From contig NZ_WOWO01000002.1 in assembly GCF_009831455.1 (NCBI RefSeq), positions 992,001-1,056,000 of the forward strand: 64,000 nucleotides of DNA, read 5' to 3'. This stretch comes from Salinirussus salinus. GTDB lineage: Archaea > Halobacteriota > Halobacteria > Halobacteriales > Haloarculaceae. The position numbers and the translations under genes were made by a program. Positions 24,640-29,885 of the stretch are shown here, in pieces. Under the pieces are notes generated by a model. The model did not search any database. It was not told the DNA's origin and worked only from the letters and a program-made list of their open reading frames with translations. Numbering within the stretch: position 1 is the stretch's first letter; every line of letters starts with the position of its first letter.

Positions 24640-25581
24640 CTACTTCTTCCCTTGGCTTTTGAGGTGGTACTCCAATATCGTATCCATACCTGTGAGAAAT
24701 TCCGTGACGTCGATGGATTCGATGGAATACTCATCCTCGAGTCGCTCTCTTCGTGTTTCCCACTCTGAGAGGAACCAATCAGCGATATCGGCCTCTTCGA
24801 TAGCTGCGATAACCTCTTCCGGAGAGACCTCTGATTTCTCATCGACAAGCATTTGTGGGTCGAAAAGCCCCTCTTCTGCTGCTCGGATCACGACCCCTGA
24901 CGACAGATCGCCTTCCTGAATCTCTCGTCGCCACGTACTTACCCAGTTGCCGATACGGGCCATCTGCTGGCACTCGTAGATCAATCCTCGGAGTCGACCC
25001 AAGTCGGTCGGATCGAACGAGGGCGAGTACGTCAAGTCTATATCGGCGTACGGGAACATGACCATGTTGTAACTCCCGAGGGCGTACGCTTCAGAGAGAT
25101 TCGCCATCGTTGGCGTGTGGTTGACCAGAAATCCGTACCGCATCGACTGCAGAGCCTGACGGAGATCGAAGAGAAAGACGTCTTCGTATTCTCCATAGAG
25201 TGGATTTGCCTGGAGCGCTGTCTCGAACTCGTCCCACACGTCCCTTACGACGGAAAGATACTCGCTGTCGACGTTGGAGTGACCCGTCTCACTGCTGTAC
25301 TGCTCGAACGGGATCTTTGCACCCTCTTCGAAGGTTTCCTTGTCGTGAATCTGGTCTGCCAGGTCATCCAGGAGCGTGATATACATCGTGAGTAGGGTTT
25401 TCTGCTCCCGCACCTCTCCCCCCTTATTGACAACAGAAGAAAGTCGGAAATTCGGCCATAGTGAATGCAACCATTTCCAGACATAGTCGTCTCGGATCCC
25501 GACATTTTCGTCATACTCGGCTTCTAATTGAATAACCGATTCCGGAAGAGATACCTCTCGAACCCCCAATTCACTATCCAT
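24640..25581 (-). CDS. Candidate class I terpene synthase
   Basis: A 313-residue protein with both metal-binding signatures of class I terpene cyclases. An aspartate-rich DDLAD lies at residues 72-76 (TLLDDLADQIHD). An NSE-type N-x-x-x-T-x-x-x-E lies at 212-220 (NWVSTWRREI), in the familiar context of MARIGNW before it and EGDLSSGVV after it. The spacing of about 140 residues and the overall length fit bacterial class I cyclases. Aromatic-rich helices and MRYGFL near 147-152 add support. These enzymes ionise a prenyl diphosphate and cyclise it. Codon use is AT-richer than in flanking genes, which suggests transfer. No prenyltransferase neighbour is visible; the product cannot be predicted. 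Confidence 0.7.
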   Translation of the reverse strand: MDSELGVREVSLPESVIQLEAEYDENVGIRDDYVWKWLHSLWPNFRLSSVVNKGGEVREQKTLLTMYITLLDDLADQIHDKETFEEGAKIPFEQYSSETGHSNVDSEYLSVVRDVWDEFETALQANPLYGEYEDVFLFDLRQALQSMRYGFLVNHTPTMANLSEAYALGSYNMVMFPYADIDLTYSPSFDPTDLGRLRGLIYECQQMARIGNWVSTWRREIQEGDLSSGVVIRAAEEGLFDPQMLVDEKSEVSPEEVIAAIEEADIADWFLSEWETRRERLEDEYSIESIDVTEFLTGMDTILEYHLKSQGKK

Positions 25582-25841: not shown

Positions 25842-26279
25842 TCAGTCGTCGGCCGGTGCAGCTCCGGTCGGCCCGCTTCCAGCAGTTGAAGAATCCTGGC
25901 TCAGAGTTGCGTACAGCATGATCAGCATGGACACTATGAGTGCTATTCCCCAAAGGAAGCCGGTGGGCATGAGGAAACCGAGGTCGAAGCCTTCTCCAAG
26001 CCAGACGATACCAGGAATACCCCACTGACCAGCGATGAACAAGGCCGTGACCGCGGTGCGAAGATTACCGGTGACTTCGAGTGCTGGTACAGCGAAGCCC
26101 ATCACGATTGCGAGGATCGAGATTACTCCAAGGTGTGCGTGACCACCGATCATCCAGCCAGGACTCCCGTTGCCGCCGGCCAACAAGGTGAACTGGTACA
26201 GTCCGACAGCCATCATCGTTGCGAGCTCAAGGAACCCACTGGCTTTGAGCGCCTTTGTAATATACAGTGCAGGGAACAT
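25842..26279 (-). CDS. Small polytopic membrane protein (possible heme-binding isomerase-like fold)
   Basis: A 145-residue protein with four hydrophobic helices and a short Ser/Gly/Pro C-terminal tail. A conserved-looking GGHAHLGVISILAIVMGFAV at the second helix and IAGQWGIPGIVWLGEG at the third faintly recall the helices of styrene oxide isomerase-type heme proteins. The resemblance is weak, and I would not assign function. It lies upstream of the terpene synthase on the same strand with a 260-base gap. A small CTCTA/TAGAG hairpin at 25823-25836 follows its stop. Confidence 0.6.
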   Translation of the reverse strand: MFPALYITKALKASGFLELATMMAVGLYQFTLLAGGNGSPGWMIGGHAHLGVISILAIVMGFAVPALEVTGNLRTAVTALFIAGQWGIPGIVWLGEGFDLGFLMPTGFLWGIALIVSMLIMLYATLSQDSSTAGSGPTGAAPADD

Positions 26280-26466: not shown

Positions 26467-27402
26467 TTAGAGATTGAGGGGTTTGATACAGTCTAGATAC
26501 TCCTTGCGAGCATCCTCTCGGTCGACTCGCGTGTAGATATCCATCGTTTCACTTGCCGCGTCACCACGGATGTACCGCAGTATGTGTTGCTTCATTCCTT
26601 GATTCCGCATCAGCGTTGTGAATACAGTTCGATAGGTGTGCGGCGTGAACTTCTTGTGAAATCTGTCCTCGCTGCGCTCCATCACACCTGCCTTGACGGT
26701 GGCATCCTTCACTGCCCGCTGCACCTGAGTCTTCGATACACGGTTCCCACGGATACTGAGGAACAAGTAGTCCGAATCGTCGTTCGATGGCCGGGTGAAT
26801 TTGAACCGCTCAATGGTCTGGATCGTCTCCTCGTCTACCGGCACGACCGTCTGCTTGCCACCTTTCCGTTCTCGGAGACGAACGAATCCCTCGTCTAACA
26901 TCAGGTCATCCATCTTCACTTCCAAGGCCTCGCTGACACGACAGCCGGTCTTGGCGAGGAGGACGGCGACCGTCTTGTTCCGTGGATCGGTCATCTCCCG
27001 GATTATCTTGGCACCGTTCTCCCAGGTCGCACAGTCGGGCCGTTTGCGGATCTTCTTCGGGATGTCCTCCAACACGACGGCAGCCGGATTCCCAGTAATG
27101 TCCTCGAATCGGGGCCGTTTCATCGTCCAGTCGTAGAACGCCGAGAGCGATTCGAGGTATCGTCGTTTCGTGTTCTGCGACAGGCCACGCTGGTCGAGCG
27201 TTACTACGTAGTCCTCGACGTGTCGCACCGTTACCTCGGACGGCGTGAGGTCCGGGAACTGCTCGTGGAAGAACTTCTTCAGTGTCCGGCTGTAGGAGTT
27301 GAGCGTCCGGTGGCTACAGCCGGTGCTCTGTTTCTTCCGGATGAACTCGTTGACCACGTCGTGTTTGTTCTCGTAGACCGTCTCGTACCAGTCATCGGCC
27401 AT
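26467..27402 (-). CDS. Tyrosine recombinase (phage-type integrase)
   Basis: A 311-residue site-specific recombinase with an N-terminal SAM-like core-binding domain (about 1-110) and a C-terminal catalytic domain. Catalytic residues: Arg155 in KTGCRVSEAL, Lys180 or 183 in RKGGKQTVVP, His255 and Arg258 in TPHTYRTV, and Tyr290 in MDIYTRVD. The second His/Trp box is replaced by YIRGD (277-281), as in many haloarchaeal members. The gene overlaps its upstream partner by 11 bases. The ATG at 27408 would add two residues. No tRNA target is nearby. The protein looks intact. Confidence 0.9.
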   Translation of the reverse strand: MADDWYETVYENKHDVVNEFIRKKQSTGCSHRTLNSYSRTLKKFFHEQFPDLTPSEVTVRHVEDYVVTLDQRGLSQNTKRRYLESLSAFYDWTMKRPRFEDITGNPAAVVLEDIPKKIRKRPDCATWENGAKIIREMTDPRNKTVAVLLAKTGCRVSEALEVKMDDLMLDEGFVRLRERKGGKQTVVPVDEETIQTIERFKFTRPSNDDSDYLFLSIRGNRVSKTQVQRAVKDATVKAGVMERSEDRFHKKFTPHTYRTVFTTLMRNQGMKQHILRYIRGDAASETMDIYTRVDREDARKEYLDCIKPLNL

Positions 27403-27907
27403 CGCCATCACCCCCGTCAGTGAGTCGCCAGCCGTGACCACGCTCGTACTCCACGCGCTCCTGCGAGGCCAGGAAGTAAAGTTCGTCCTCAACCGGCTTC
27501 CGGATCAAGTTGTCCAGCGCACCACTCTCCACGATGTCCTGCAGAATCTCGGGTAGCGTCTGGTACTCCGTGGAGAGGAACTGTTCGAGGAAGTCGATGT
27601 CGTCGATCTTCGTGGTTCCACTCTCCTTCTTCCGCTCTCGCTCCAGCTGCGTCTCCAGTTCCTCGATCCGTAATTTGAGTTCGGCTATCTCCTCCTCGCT
27701 CTGGTGGTGCGCGAGATACCCTTGCTGTCGATAGGCGCGGGCCTCCTGTACCAGTTCGTAGAGGTATTTGCTCGTGCTTCGGTAGCCCTTCTCCTCTGCT
27801 TCTTCATCCCACTCTTCCTTGTCGGGTTCTTTGCAGACGATCTGGGCGACCGTCGAGTCGGCTGCGAGGCCTGCGGTCTGTTTCCATTGGTCTTTGTCGT
27901 CGGACAT
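27392..27907 (-). CDS. Integrase-linked coiled-coil protein
   Basis: A 171-residue acidic protein encoded just before the integrase and overlapping it. The N-terminal third has a segment that looks like a tetramerising or ribbon-helix-helix fold (YRSTSKYLYELVQEARAYRQ). The middle is a strong coiled coil (EEEIAELKLRIEELETQLER). The C-terminus ends in an apparent winged-helix wing, RVEYERGHGWRLTDGG. Haloarchaeal integrases are often preceded by such genes; a role as excision or DNA-binding partner is inference. Confidence 0.7.
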   Translation of the reverse strand: MSDDKDQWKQTAGLAADSTVAQIVCKEPDKEEWDEEAEEKGYRSTSKYLYELVQEARAYRQQGYLAHHQSEEEIAELKLRIEELETQLERERKKESGTTKIDDIDFLEQFLSTEYQTLPEILQDIVESGALDNLIRKPVEDELYFLASQERVEYERGHGWRLTDGGDGDGR

Positions 27908-27960: not shown

Positions 27961-28020
27961 CACTCTGGAATTTACTATCAACTTTTTAATATCTTATCTA
28001 TGTTGATATTCACCAGAGTG
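27961..28020. promoter_or_regulatory. Nested inverted repeat upstream of the integrase operon
   Basis: Outer arms CACTCTGG (27961-27968) and CCAGAGTG (28013-28020) and inner arms TATCAAC (27976-27982) and GTTGATA (28002-28008) enclose an AT-rich centre. The element lies between the integrase operon start (27907) and the first toxin-antitoxin repeat. It could be an operator, a recombinase binding site or an att core. Confidence 0.5.
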
Positions 28021-28101
28021 CCGAGGCCACCGGTTTTTGACGGTAGAACGAGTCTCTGGGGATATCTGGCTGTGGCCACGGTAGACAGAGGCCCCGGTCA
28101 G
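28016..28101 (+). repeat. Direct repeat A of the toxin-antitoxin array
   Basis: An 86-base copy beginning GAGTGCCGAGGCCACCGGTT and ending AGGCCCCGGTCAG. It matches repeat B (28818-28903) base for base over most of its length without gaps. It lies just upstream of the TATA box for the DUF433 antitoxin gene. Internal GGCCAC/GTGGCC pairs could fold. Confidence 0.85.
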
Positions 28102-28117
28102 TTCGGCGTCGACCACG

Positions 28118-28126
28118 TTTTTATTA
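28118..28126 (+). promoter_or_regulatory. TATA-like box of the DUF433/DUF5615 module
   Basis: TTTTTATTA lies 24 bases before the antitoxin ATG at 28150, giving a leaderless transcript. The second module has ATTTATG (28929-28935) at the same distance from its ATG at 28960. Confidence 0.5.
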
Positions 28127-28149
28127 CCGAGAGAGCGCGAAGGCCATCC

Positions 28150-28374
28150 ATGAGCATCGTCCAAGACCCCGAGCACAGCGACGGTGCCCCGACCATCGAG
28201 GGCACTGGTATCCGGGTGAAAGACGTCGCGGTCGCGTACGAGCATAGCGGGTACGAGCCCGACGAGATTACCCAGCTGTACCCGGACCTCTCGCTCGGTG
28301 ATGTCCACCGTGCCCTCGCGTACTATTACGACCATATCGACGACTTCAGATCCGCCGAATCTGCGACGGCATGA
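28150..28374 (+). CDS. DUF433 family antitoxin
   Basis: A 74-residue small helical DNA-binding protein of the DUF433 (VapB45-like) family. The signature IEGTGIRVKDVAVAYEHSGY is followed by DEITQLYPDLSLGDVHRALA. It is predicted to bind the operator of its own module and to neutralise the DUF5615 toxin encoded next. The two genes overlap by four bases (ATGA). Confidence 0.85.
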   Translation: MSIVQDPEHSDGAPTIEGTGIRVKDVAVAYEHSGYEPDEITQLYPDLSLGDVHRALAYYYDHIDDFRSAESATA

Positions 28375-28694
28375 GGTCGCTGTACTGTGACGAGAGTATA
28401 TGGATTCCAGTCGCGGACGGACTCCGCCGTCGTGGCTGGACCGTCTACACTGCTCGGGACGAGGGACGATTGGGCGACCCCGACCGGGAACACCTCTCGT
28501 ATGCAGTCGAGAACGACTGGATACTGGTGACGTTCGACGACGACTTCCTCTCGCTCGTCGAAGGATCCGGATTCGAGCACGCTGGAATCATCTACGTTCA
28601 GCAGGCTGGCCGAGACATCGGGGACGTCGTGAAAACGGTCGACGCGCACCTCGAATCACGTCCTGAAGACGACCGCTGCATTCACTACTGCTGA
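28371..28694 (+). CDS. DUF5615 PIN-like toxin
   Basis: A 107-residue PIN-like (Mut7-C/DUF5615) putative ribonuclease. Conserved acidic residues are in LYCDESIW near the N-terminus and in WILVTFDDDFL near the middle, and a second acidic patch follows (EHAGIIYVQQ). It pairs with the upstream DUF433 antitoxin, the usual partner. The sequence looks full length. Target RNA unknown. Confidence 0.85.
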   Translation: MRSLYCDESIWIPVADGLRRRGWTVYTARDEGRLGDPDREHLSYAVENDWILVTFDDDFLSLVEGSGFEHAGIIYVQQAGRDIGDVVKTVDAHLESRPEDDRCIHYC

Positions 28695-28903: not shown

Positions 28904-28959
28904 ATTCTCGTCGGGCAGGCAGACACGGATTTATGAACGTTGCCGAGCAACCACACTGT

Positions 28960-29211
28960 ATGGCCGCCGAAATCTCGGACCGGGTACGAGAAATCGCGGA
29001 GGCACGCGGCCTTCCAGAGTCCGAGGTGTTCGAACGGGCACTGGAACGCGGTCTCGAAGACCTGTGGGAAGACCTCGTGCTCGCACAGTACCTCGACGGA
29101 GAACTCGACCGCGAGGGAGCGATCGAGCGCGTCGGTCGGACGAAAGTCGAGCGAGCTGAGCGCGAGCGTGAGGTGGTCGAGGATGACGTCGACTGGGGCC
29201 TGAACGCGTGA
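28960..29211 (+). CDS. VapB/UPF0175-like antitoxin
   Basis: An 83-residue acidic, helical protein: MAAEISDRVREIAEARGLPE, then EVFERALERGLEDLWEDLVL, then ERVGRTKVERAEREREVVED. It fits the short antitoxins paired with DUF3368 PIN proteins. The ATG at 28960 was chosen over one at 28933 because a TATA box (28929-28935) overlaps the latter. Its stop overlaps the toxin GTG start by three bases. Confidence 0.78.
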   Translation: MAAEISDRVREIAEARGLPESEVFERALERGLEDLWEDLVLAQYLDGELDREGAIERVGRTKVERAEREREVVEDDVDWGLNA

Positions 29212-29678
29212 CGCTTGCGGCCGTTTCAGATGCCGGACCACTCATTCACCTCGCCGAAACCGATTCACTCGAACTGCTCTCGGCGTTTGACACGCTCCTC
29301 GTTCCAGAGACGGTTTACGAGGAAGTCGAGGTCGGTGGTGTTCCGGACGAACTGGCTGACCTCTCGTACGAACTCGTCGAAGCCGATGAAAGCCGAGTCG
29401 AAGCCGAAGAACTGGACGCTGGGGAACGCGCCGCGATTGCGGTCGCAAAAGAGCGGGGAGTCGTTCTCTTGACCGATGACCTCGCCGCTCGAGAGGCGGC
29501 ATCCAGCGCTGACATCGAAGTACGCGGTTCCATCGGCGTCATCGCGCTCGGTTACGGCCGCGGATTACTCGACAGAGACGAAGCGGCATCCCGTATGCGA
29601 GCACTCCAGCGTGAGACGAGCCTCTTTGTGACCGACGCAGTCGTGGAGCGAGGCATCCGGATGTTGGACGAGCAGTAA
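29208..29678 (+). CDS. DUF3368 PIN-domain toxin
   Basis: A 156-residue PIN-fold putative ribonuclease. The N-terminal VSDAGPLIHLAETDSLELL carries the first catalytic Asp. The second acidic residues are in DAGERAAIAVAKERGVVLLT, and the third pair is TDDLAAREAA. A GIGVIALGYGRGLL-like helix closes the fold. It overlaps its antitoxin as GTGA. A decayed N-terminal copy of a related gene lies at 29791-29885 behind repeat C. Confidence 0.85.
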   Translation: MTLAAVSDAGPLIHLAETDSLELLSAFDTLLVPETVYEEVEVGGVPDELADLSYELVEADESRVEAEELDAGERAAIAVAKERGVVLLTDDLAAREAASSADIEVRGSIGVIALGYGRGLLDRDEAASRMRALQRETSLFVTDAVVERGIRMLDEQ

Positions 29679-29780
29679 TGGAACGAGCGCCCTCTATAGA
29701 CGCGCTAAACACAGCCGCTATGGATAGATTGCGGGTCGTGAGTGCAGAGGCCACCGATTTTTGACAGCAGACGGCATCTC
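29678..29780 (+). repeat. Direct repeat C of the toxin-antitoxin array
   Basis: A 103-base copy, gap-free with the first 103 bases of repeat B. It lacks the last 45 bases of B, including the GGGGATATCTGG block. It starts at the last base of the intact PIN toxin gene, so the boundary between cassettes is exact. It precedes the decayed toxin fragment. Confidence 0.8.
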
Positions 29781-29790
29781 CCGCGGGGTC

Positions 29791-29885
29791 TCTCAGTGGT
29801 CGTGATAGCGCCCTCCATCTCGCCGAAGTTGATTCGTTCGAACTGCTCGCGACGTTTGATGCACTCCTCGCTCCAGAAAGGGGAG
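29791..29885 (+). pseudogene. Decayed N-terminal fragment of a DUF3368 PIN toxin
   Basis: About 90 bases read LAEVDSFELLATFDALLAPE, which matches LAETDSLELLSAFDTLLVPE of the intact toxin at 29208-29678. No antitoxin gene lies before it and the frame upstream is broken. The similarity stops after about 30 codons. It is a remnant of a third module, not a functional gene. The rest of the gap to 29997 holds no gene I can support. Confidence 0.8.

Follow-up and report, generated by a model that had tools for sequence, protein, structure and literature searches.

The question raised by this locus is whether a gene lying next to an integrase in Salinirussus salinus encodes a class I terpene synthase, and of what kind. 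As of 2023 bacterioruberin and halocin were the only products confidently linked to archaeal biosynthetic gene clusters, and among archaeal terpenes bacterioruberin alone had been tied to a cluster (PMC10105419), while terpene clusters in Archaea have been reported in silico (PMC12144867, PMC8600319). In the open-access papers searched, no characterised archaeal class I terpene synthase or cyclase was found. Fold, metal motifs, family and composition were established by computation on the window (the whole stretch of 64,000 nucleotides that was analysed) and on related genomes, and make it likely that the gene belongs to a divergent haloarchaeal family of class I terpene synthases, is functional and was acquired laterally beside the integrase. 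The gene and its motifs are as follows:

24640..25581, minus strand: divergent class I terpene synthase, 313 aa (Pfam, family alignment, AlphaFold model, fold matches)
25354..25368, minus strand: Asp-rich metal motif DDLAD, residues 72–76 (alignment of 70 relatives)
24922..24948, minus strand: NSE-type metal motif NWVSTWRRE, residues 212–220 (alignment of 70 relatives)

The open reading frame begins with ATG and holds 313 codons, and its extent, both motifs and the 140 residues between them are exactly as given in the initial annotation. When the window protein was shuffled 20,000 times, both motifs appeared at a spacing of 136–146 residues in 1.0% of the shuffles, and the same search found no such pair in 393 other, unrelated ORFs of comparable length taken from related loci. 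Of 106 sequence entries for relatives, in which some genomes appear twice, 83 have a spacing of exactly 140.

A search of Pfam gave PF19086 (Terpene_syn_C_2) as the sole sensible match of the window protein, with 16.6 bits (E 0.0071) against a curated cut-off of 23.7 bits; no match was obtained in NCBIfam, nor by phmmer against PDB. The same family is matched by 17 of 24 relatives and by 47 of the 70 aligned members at E<=0.01 (best E 2.6e-8), is the only one matched consistently across relatives, and in a paralog of the same genome, G000:C2:206209-207117, exceeds the cut-off (24.8 bits; match region G000:C2:206383-206922). In the profile search proposed in the initial annotation, most relatives thus match the family and the paralog passes the cut-off, with the window protein itself below it. 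An AlphaFold2 model made from the alignment of 70 family sequences (pLDDT 93.9, pTM 0.92; a single-sequence prediction reached only pLDDT 50) has the all-alpha class I terpenoid synthase fold. Foldseek comparison of the model with PDB gave 38 matches at E<=0.001, the top ones being the synthases of T-muurolol, hydropyrene and aristolochene (E about 1e-4, probability 1.00, TM 0.50–0.64, RMSD 5–7 Å, identity 10–16%), with human FPP synthase only at rank 46 (E 1.6e-3). No match was found when the model was compared with viral folds, and there is therefore no sign of a viral enzyme in the predicted structure.

When the family profile was compared with that of 11 synthases encoded on the Streptomyces clavuligerus ATCC 27064 plasmid, residues 71–307 aligned (E 7.5e-4, with an hhalign probability of only 26%) and, unprompted, DDLAD fell on DDHFD and NWVSTWRRE on NDVLSLEKE, so that both motifs were in register, while the controls gave no alignment of this kind (reversed, E 0.3; a one-sequence prenyl synthase, E 0.7). 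Among the Streptomyces enzymes with a recognisable Asp-rich motif the two motifs are 138–143 residues apart, around the 140 of the window protein. With the bacterial and fungal synthases of PF19086 (T-muurolol synthase 9hqm, hydropyrene synthase 8b4m) the window protein shares the all-alpha class I fold, D(D/E)xx(D/E) followed by NxxxTxxxE in the same order, a basic residue preceding the final E of the NSE motif and a length of about 310 aa. Trans-prenyl diphosphate synthases (PF00348) have the superfamily fold and the Asp-rich motif in common with it, but the second motif of the window protein is NSE-type and not a second DDxxD, and PF00348 matches neither it nor its relatives. On the all-alpha fold, DDLAD fits the Asp-rich motif (D/N)Dxx(D/E), and the triad ligands N212, T216 and E220 of the NSE motif are present; the strict class I NSE/DTE consensus (N,D)D(L,I,V)x(S,T)xxxE, as quoted in PMC7192455, is broken at its second residue, which is W. 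The class I assignment holds, with metal motifs conserved in the family and a fold that matches solved class I synthases, and, judged from sequence and model, the gene probably encodes an enzyme turning a prenyl diphosphate into a terpene.

Alignment of 70 relatives revealed 21 invariant columns, both metal motifs included. D72, D73, N212, T216, R219 and E220 are invariant and residue 76 is D or E in all, the motifs DD(x2)(D/E) and N(x3)T(x3)E being kept, while the second residue of the NSE motif is Trp throughout (W213), giving NW where the canonical enzymes and those of PF19086 have ND. All 11 Streptomyces enzymes carry a diphosphate-sensor Arg 45 or 46 residues before the NSE motif and RY or RF 87–99 residues after it, whereas in the haloarchaeal family the sensor column is mixed (Tyr166 in the window protein, as judged by sequence register) and no conserved RY is found at the C-terminus, which ends YH...K. 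Because of the Trp and of the missing conservation of sensor Arg and C-terminal Arg-Tyr, the family is a divergent class I variant, and catalysis may differ from that of the canonical enzymes or be altered, since the latter two features are not conserved. Ten invariant residues are instead missing from canonical enzymes (R30, W37, D139, Q142, N172, D182, R198, R209, W213 and W217), so that the Trp/Arg set too is unlike that of the bacterial and fungal synthases, and the invariant basic residues R30, K61, R198, R209 and R219 are candidate replacements for sensor Arg and RY.

This different invariant set could also belong to an enzyme with the all-alpha terpenoid fold that is not a cyclase: a phosphatase or lyase acting on prenyl diphosphates, a synthase that does not cyclise, or an enzyme that transfers prenyl groups to a small acceptor. 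Its metal motifs would be the same and its diphosphate site different. The absence of tailoring enzymes beside the window copy would fit this reading as well. We regard such a function as unlikely, since the best fold matches are cyclases and not chain-elongating enzymes such as the human FPP synthase, and since PF19086 stands alone as consistent Pfam family. For a class I synthase, metal-dependent ionisation by the family enzymes is a well supported prediction from motifs and model. Catalysis, substrate, diphosphate grip and product of the window enzyme are what we infer from this: D72/D73 together with N212/T216/E220 would hold Mg2+ ions for binding and ionising a prenyl diphosphate, which would most likely be a C15 or C20 product of prenyl synthases of the host itself; cyclisation or quenching of the carbocation would yield a terpene, with the diphosphate probably gripped by the five basic residues named above and not by sensor Arg and Arg-Tyr. 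The family could thereby reveal a second mode of diphosphate grip in the terpenoid synthase fold.

Next to the window synthase there is no gene for a prenyl synthase, a P450 or any other tailoring enzyme, which agrees with the initial annotation as to the absence of a prenyltransferase beside it. The three PF00348 genes of the genome are located about 185–275 kb away on the same contig, and substrate supply therefore needs no neighbour gene; four PF00067 matches are found elsewhere in the host genome.

When searching for relatives, a first scan of genome contigs with the single window protein as query found none, while an alignment-based scan of GTDB-representative contigs found 113. In whole genomes, relatives occur in 120 of 391 class-mates (31%) and in 39 of 86 genera, and in another sample in 24 of 97 haloarchaeal genomes; the host genome itself holds three copies, the window copy, G000:C2:206209-207117 and G000:C4:123170-124084. 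The term orphan, used of the gene in the initial annotation, is thus true of its immediate neighbourhood but not of the genome, with its two paralogs, or of the class. The family is widespread but unstudied in salt-loving archaea, and the records of six haloarchaeal plasmids label its members 'hypothetical protein'. It may extend beyond Halobacteria, because four members (L108, L120, L124 and L125), which cluster together in the tree (100/99), come from contigs of 31–49% GC in MAGs that are labelled Methanohalobium, archaeon and bacterium. Two copies on one contig were seen in L100 (Natrialba chahannaoensis), in tandem, and in L050 (Halobacteriales archaeon QS_5_70_17), about 9 kb apart. In the maximum-likelihood tree the window sequence stands alone on a long branch (0.97 changes per site), within a group of 34 rows (96/94).

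The window gene lies in an AT-rich stretch from about 24.3 to 30 kb of the window, together with the following genes:

25842..26279, minus strand: 145-aa membrane-like protein, between integrase and synthase (gene survey)
26467..27441, minus strand: tyrosine integrase (XerA/XerD-like), a probable mobile-element marker (PF00589 E 5e-25)
27392..27907, minus strand: 171-aa coiled-coil protein, overlapping the integrase start (ORF and domain survey) and probably in the same operon as the integrase

The integrase reported beside the synthase is hence confirmed, upstream on the same strand and with one gene between, and so are the AT-richer codons: the synthase has a GC of 0.52 and a GC3 of 0.62, compared with a GC3 of 0.90–0.93 in four flanking host genes and 0.92–0.93 in the two paralogs. 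The 145-aa protein was considered as a partner of the synthase and set aside, its homologs (up to 79% identity, in 36 of 194 haloarchaeal genomes) being located elsewhere in other genomes; it is probably an unrelated passenger, because no reported homolog locus coincides with a family synthase. Toxin-antitoxin-like pairs follow at 28.0–29.7 kb, a DUF433/DUF5615-PIN pair at 28000-28694 and next in row a CopG-like/PIN-like pair at 28933-29678, each accompanied by a copy, 87–88% identical, of a repeat about 100 bp long (28016/28818, 28758/29680), of which a decayed third copy is seen at about 29742-29882. Neither a tRNA within the window nor convincing att direct repeats around the island were found, and in a same-genus genome the contig ends at the island start, leaving no empty site visible.

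The window copy seems to have been acquired laterally next to the integrase, given its composition, its lone long branch and its missing regulator partner (below). The copy might be silent or decaying, although intact, because of this branch length and the lack of the regulator of the related clade. Such a copy would have the right fold and no physiological role in the host; its low GC3, the nearby integrase and the absence of linked regulator or pathway genes would fit, but the frame of 313 codons is unbroken and all 21 invariant columns are kept, making this even less probable than a non-cyclising function. We retain the functional, acquired synthase as the preferred reading.

Neighbouring genes in other genomes were taken from our own ORF picker in high-GC DNA, so that some may be wrong. 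A PAS-GAF-BAT-HTH_10 protein (PF15915, PF04967) was found <=1.5 kb from the synthase in 31 of 74 loci, a count that leaves out 8 loci without an anchor, and these loci often also carry a HalOD1 protein (PF18545). Of the 254 near ORFs in these loci 31 coded for such proteins, but of the 1030 far ones only 2 did (Fisher P 1e-20, a value that ignores relatedness). All 31 linked loci belong to one branch-supported group of 42 rows (99/93), the regulator being either divergent from or co-directional with the synthase, and in Halobellus limi the RefSeq-derived annotation independently places a bacterio-opsin activator domain protein and a HalOD1 protein next to it. Another Halobellus limi gene, near the synthase copy and annotated 'prenyltransferase/squalene oxidase repeat', was rejected as a class II partner, its best Pfam match being a GH127 glycosidase domain.

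This Bat-linked clade (e.g. Haloarcula, Halorubrum, Halomarina and the host's own G000:C2:206209-207117) is of the same family, with the same motifs and about 40–45% identity, but the window copy falls outside it and has neither regulator nor HalOD1 protein, and would, if expressed, work without the sensor-regulator. The main interest is in the family, with its absent sensor Arg and RY and the sensor-regulator linkage in one clade, and less in the single window copy; with members in about a third of haloarchaeal genomes and a regulator-tied clade, haloarchaeal terpene chemistry would become directly testable. Tentatively, and with less confidence than in the assignment itself, it may be proposed that haloarchaea own a class I synthase family with diphosphate binding unlike that of bacterial, fungal and plant enzymes, that one clade, under the control of Bat-type environmental sensor-regulators, makes terpenes unseen in Archaea, and that the copy in the window is a branch of the family that moves horizontally and has no regulator.

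Outside the regulator-linked core several members are flanked by PAS histidine kinases. Among Natrialbaceae (L090, L098, L102, L109, L110, L112, L115, L119, L126 and others; Natrinema, Natrialba) a gene for a metallo-beta-lactamase-fold hydrolase is divergent from the synthase (11 near, 3 far), and in L111 and L118 an FAD-binding oxidoreductase/monooxygenase-like gene, possibly a tailoring enzyme, adjoins it downstream. In Haloarcula (L063, L067, L059, L086 and L065) a 522-aa gene, resembling 2-isopropylmalate synthase/homocitrate synthase as judged by eye, is convergent with the synthase.
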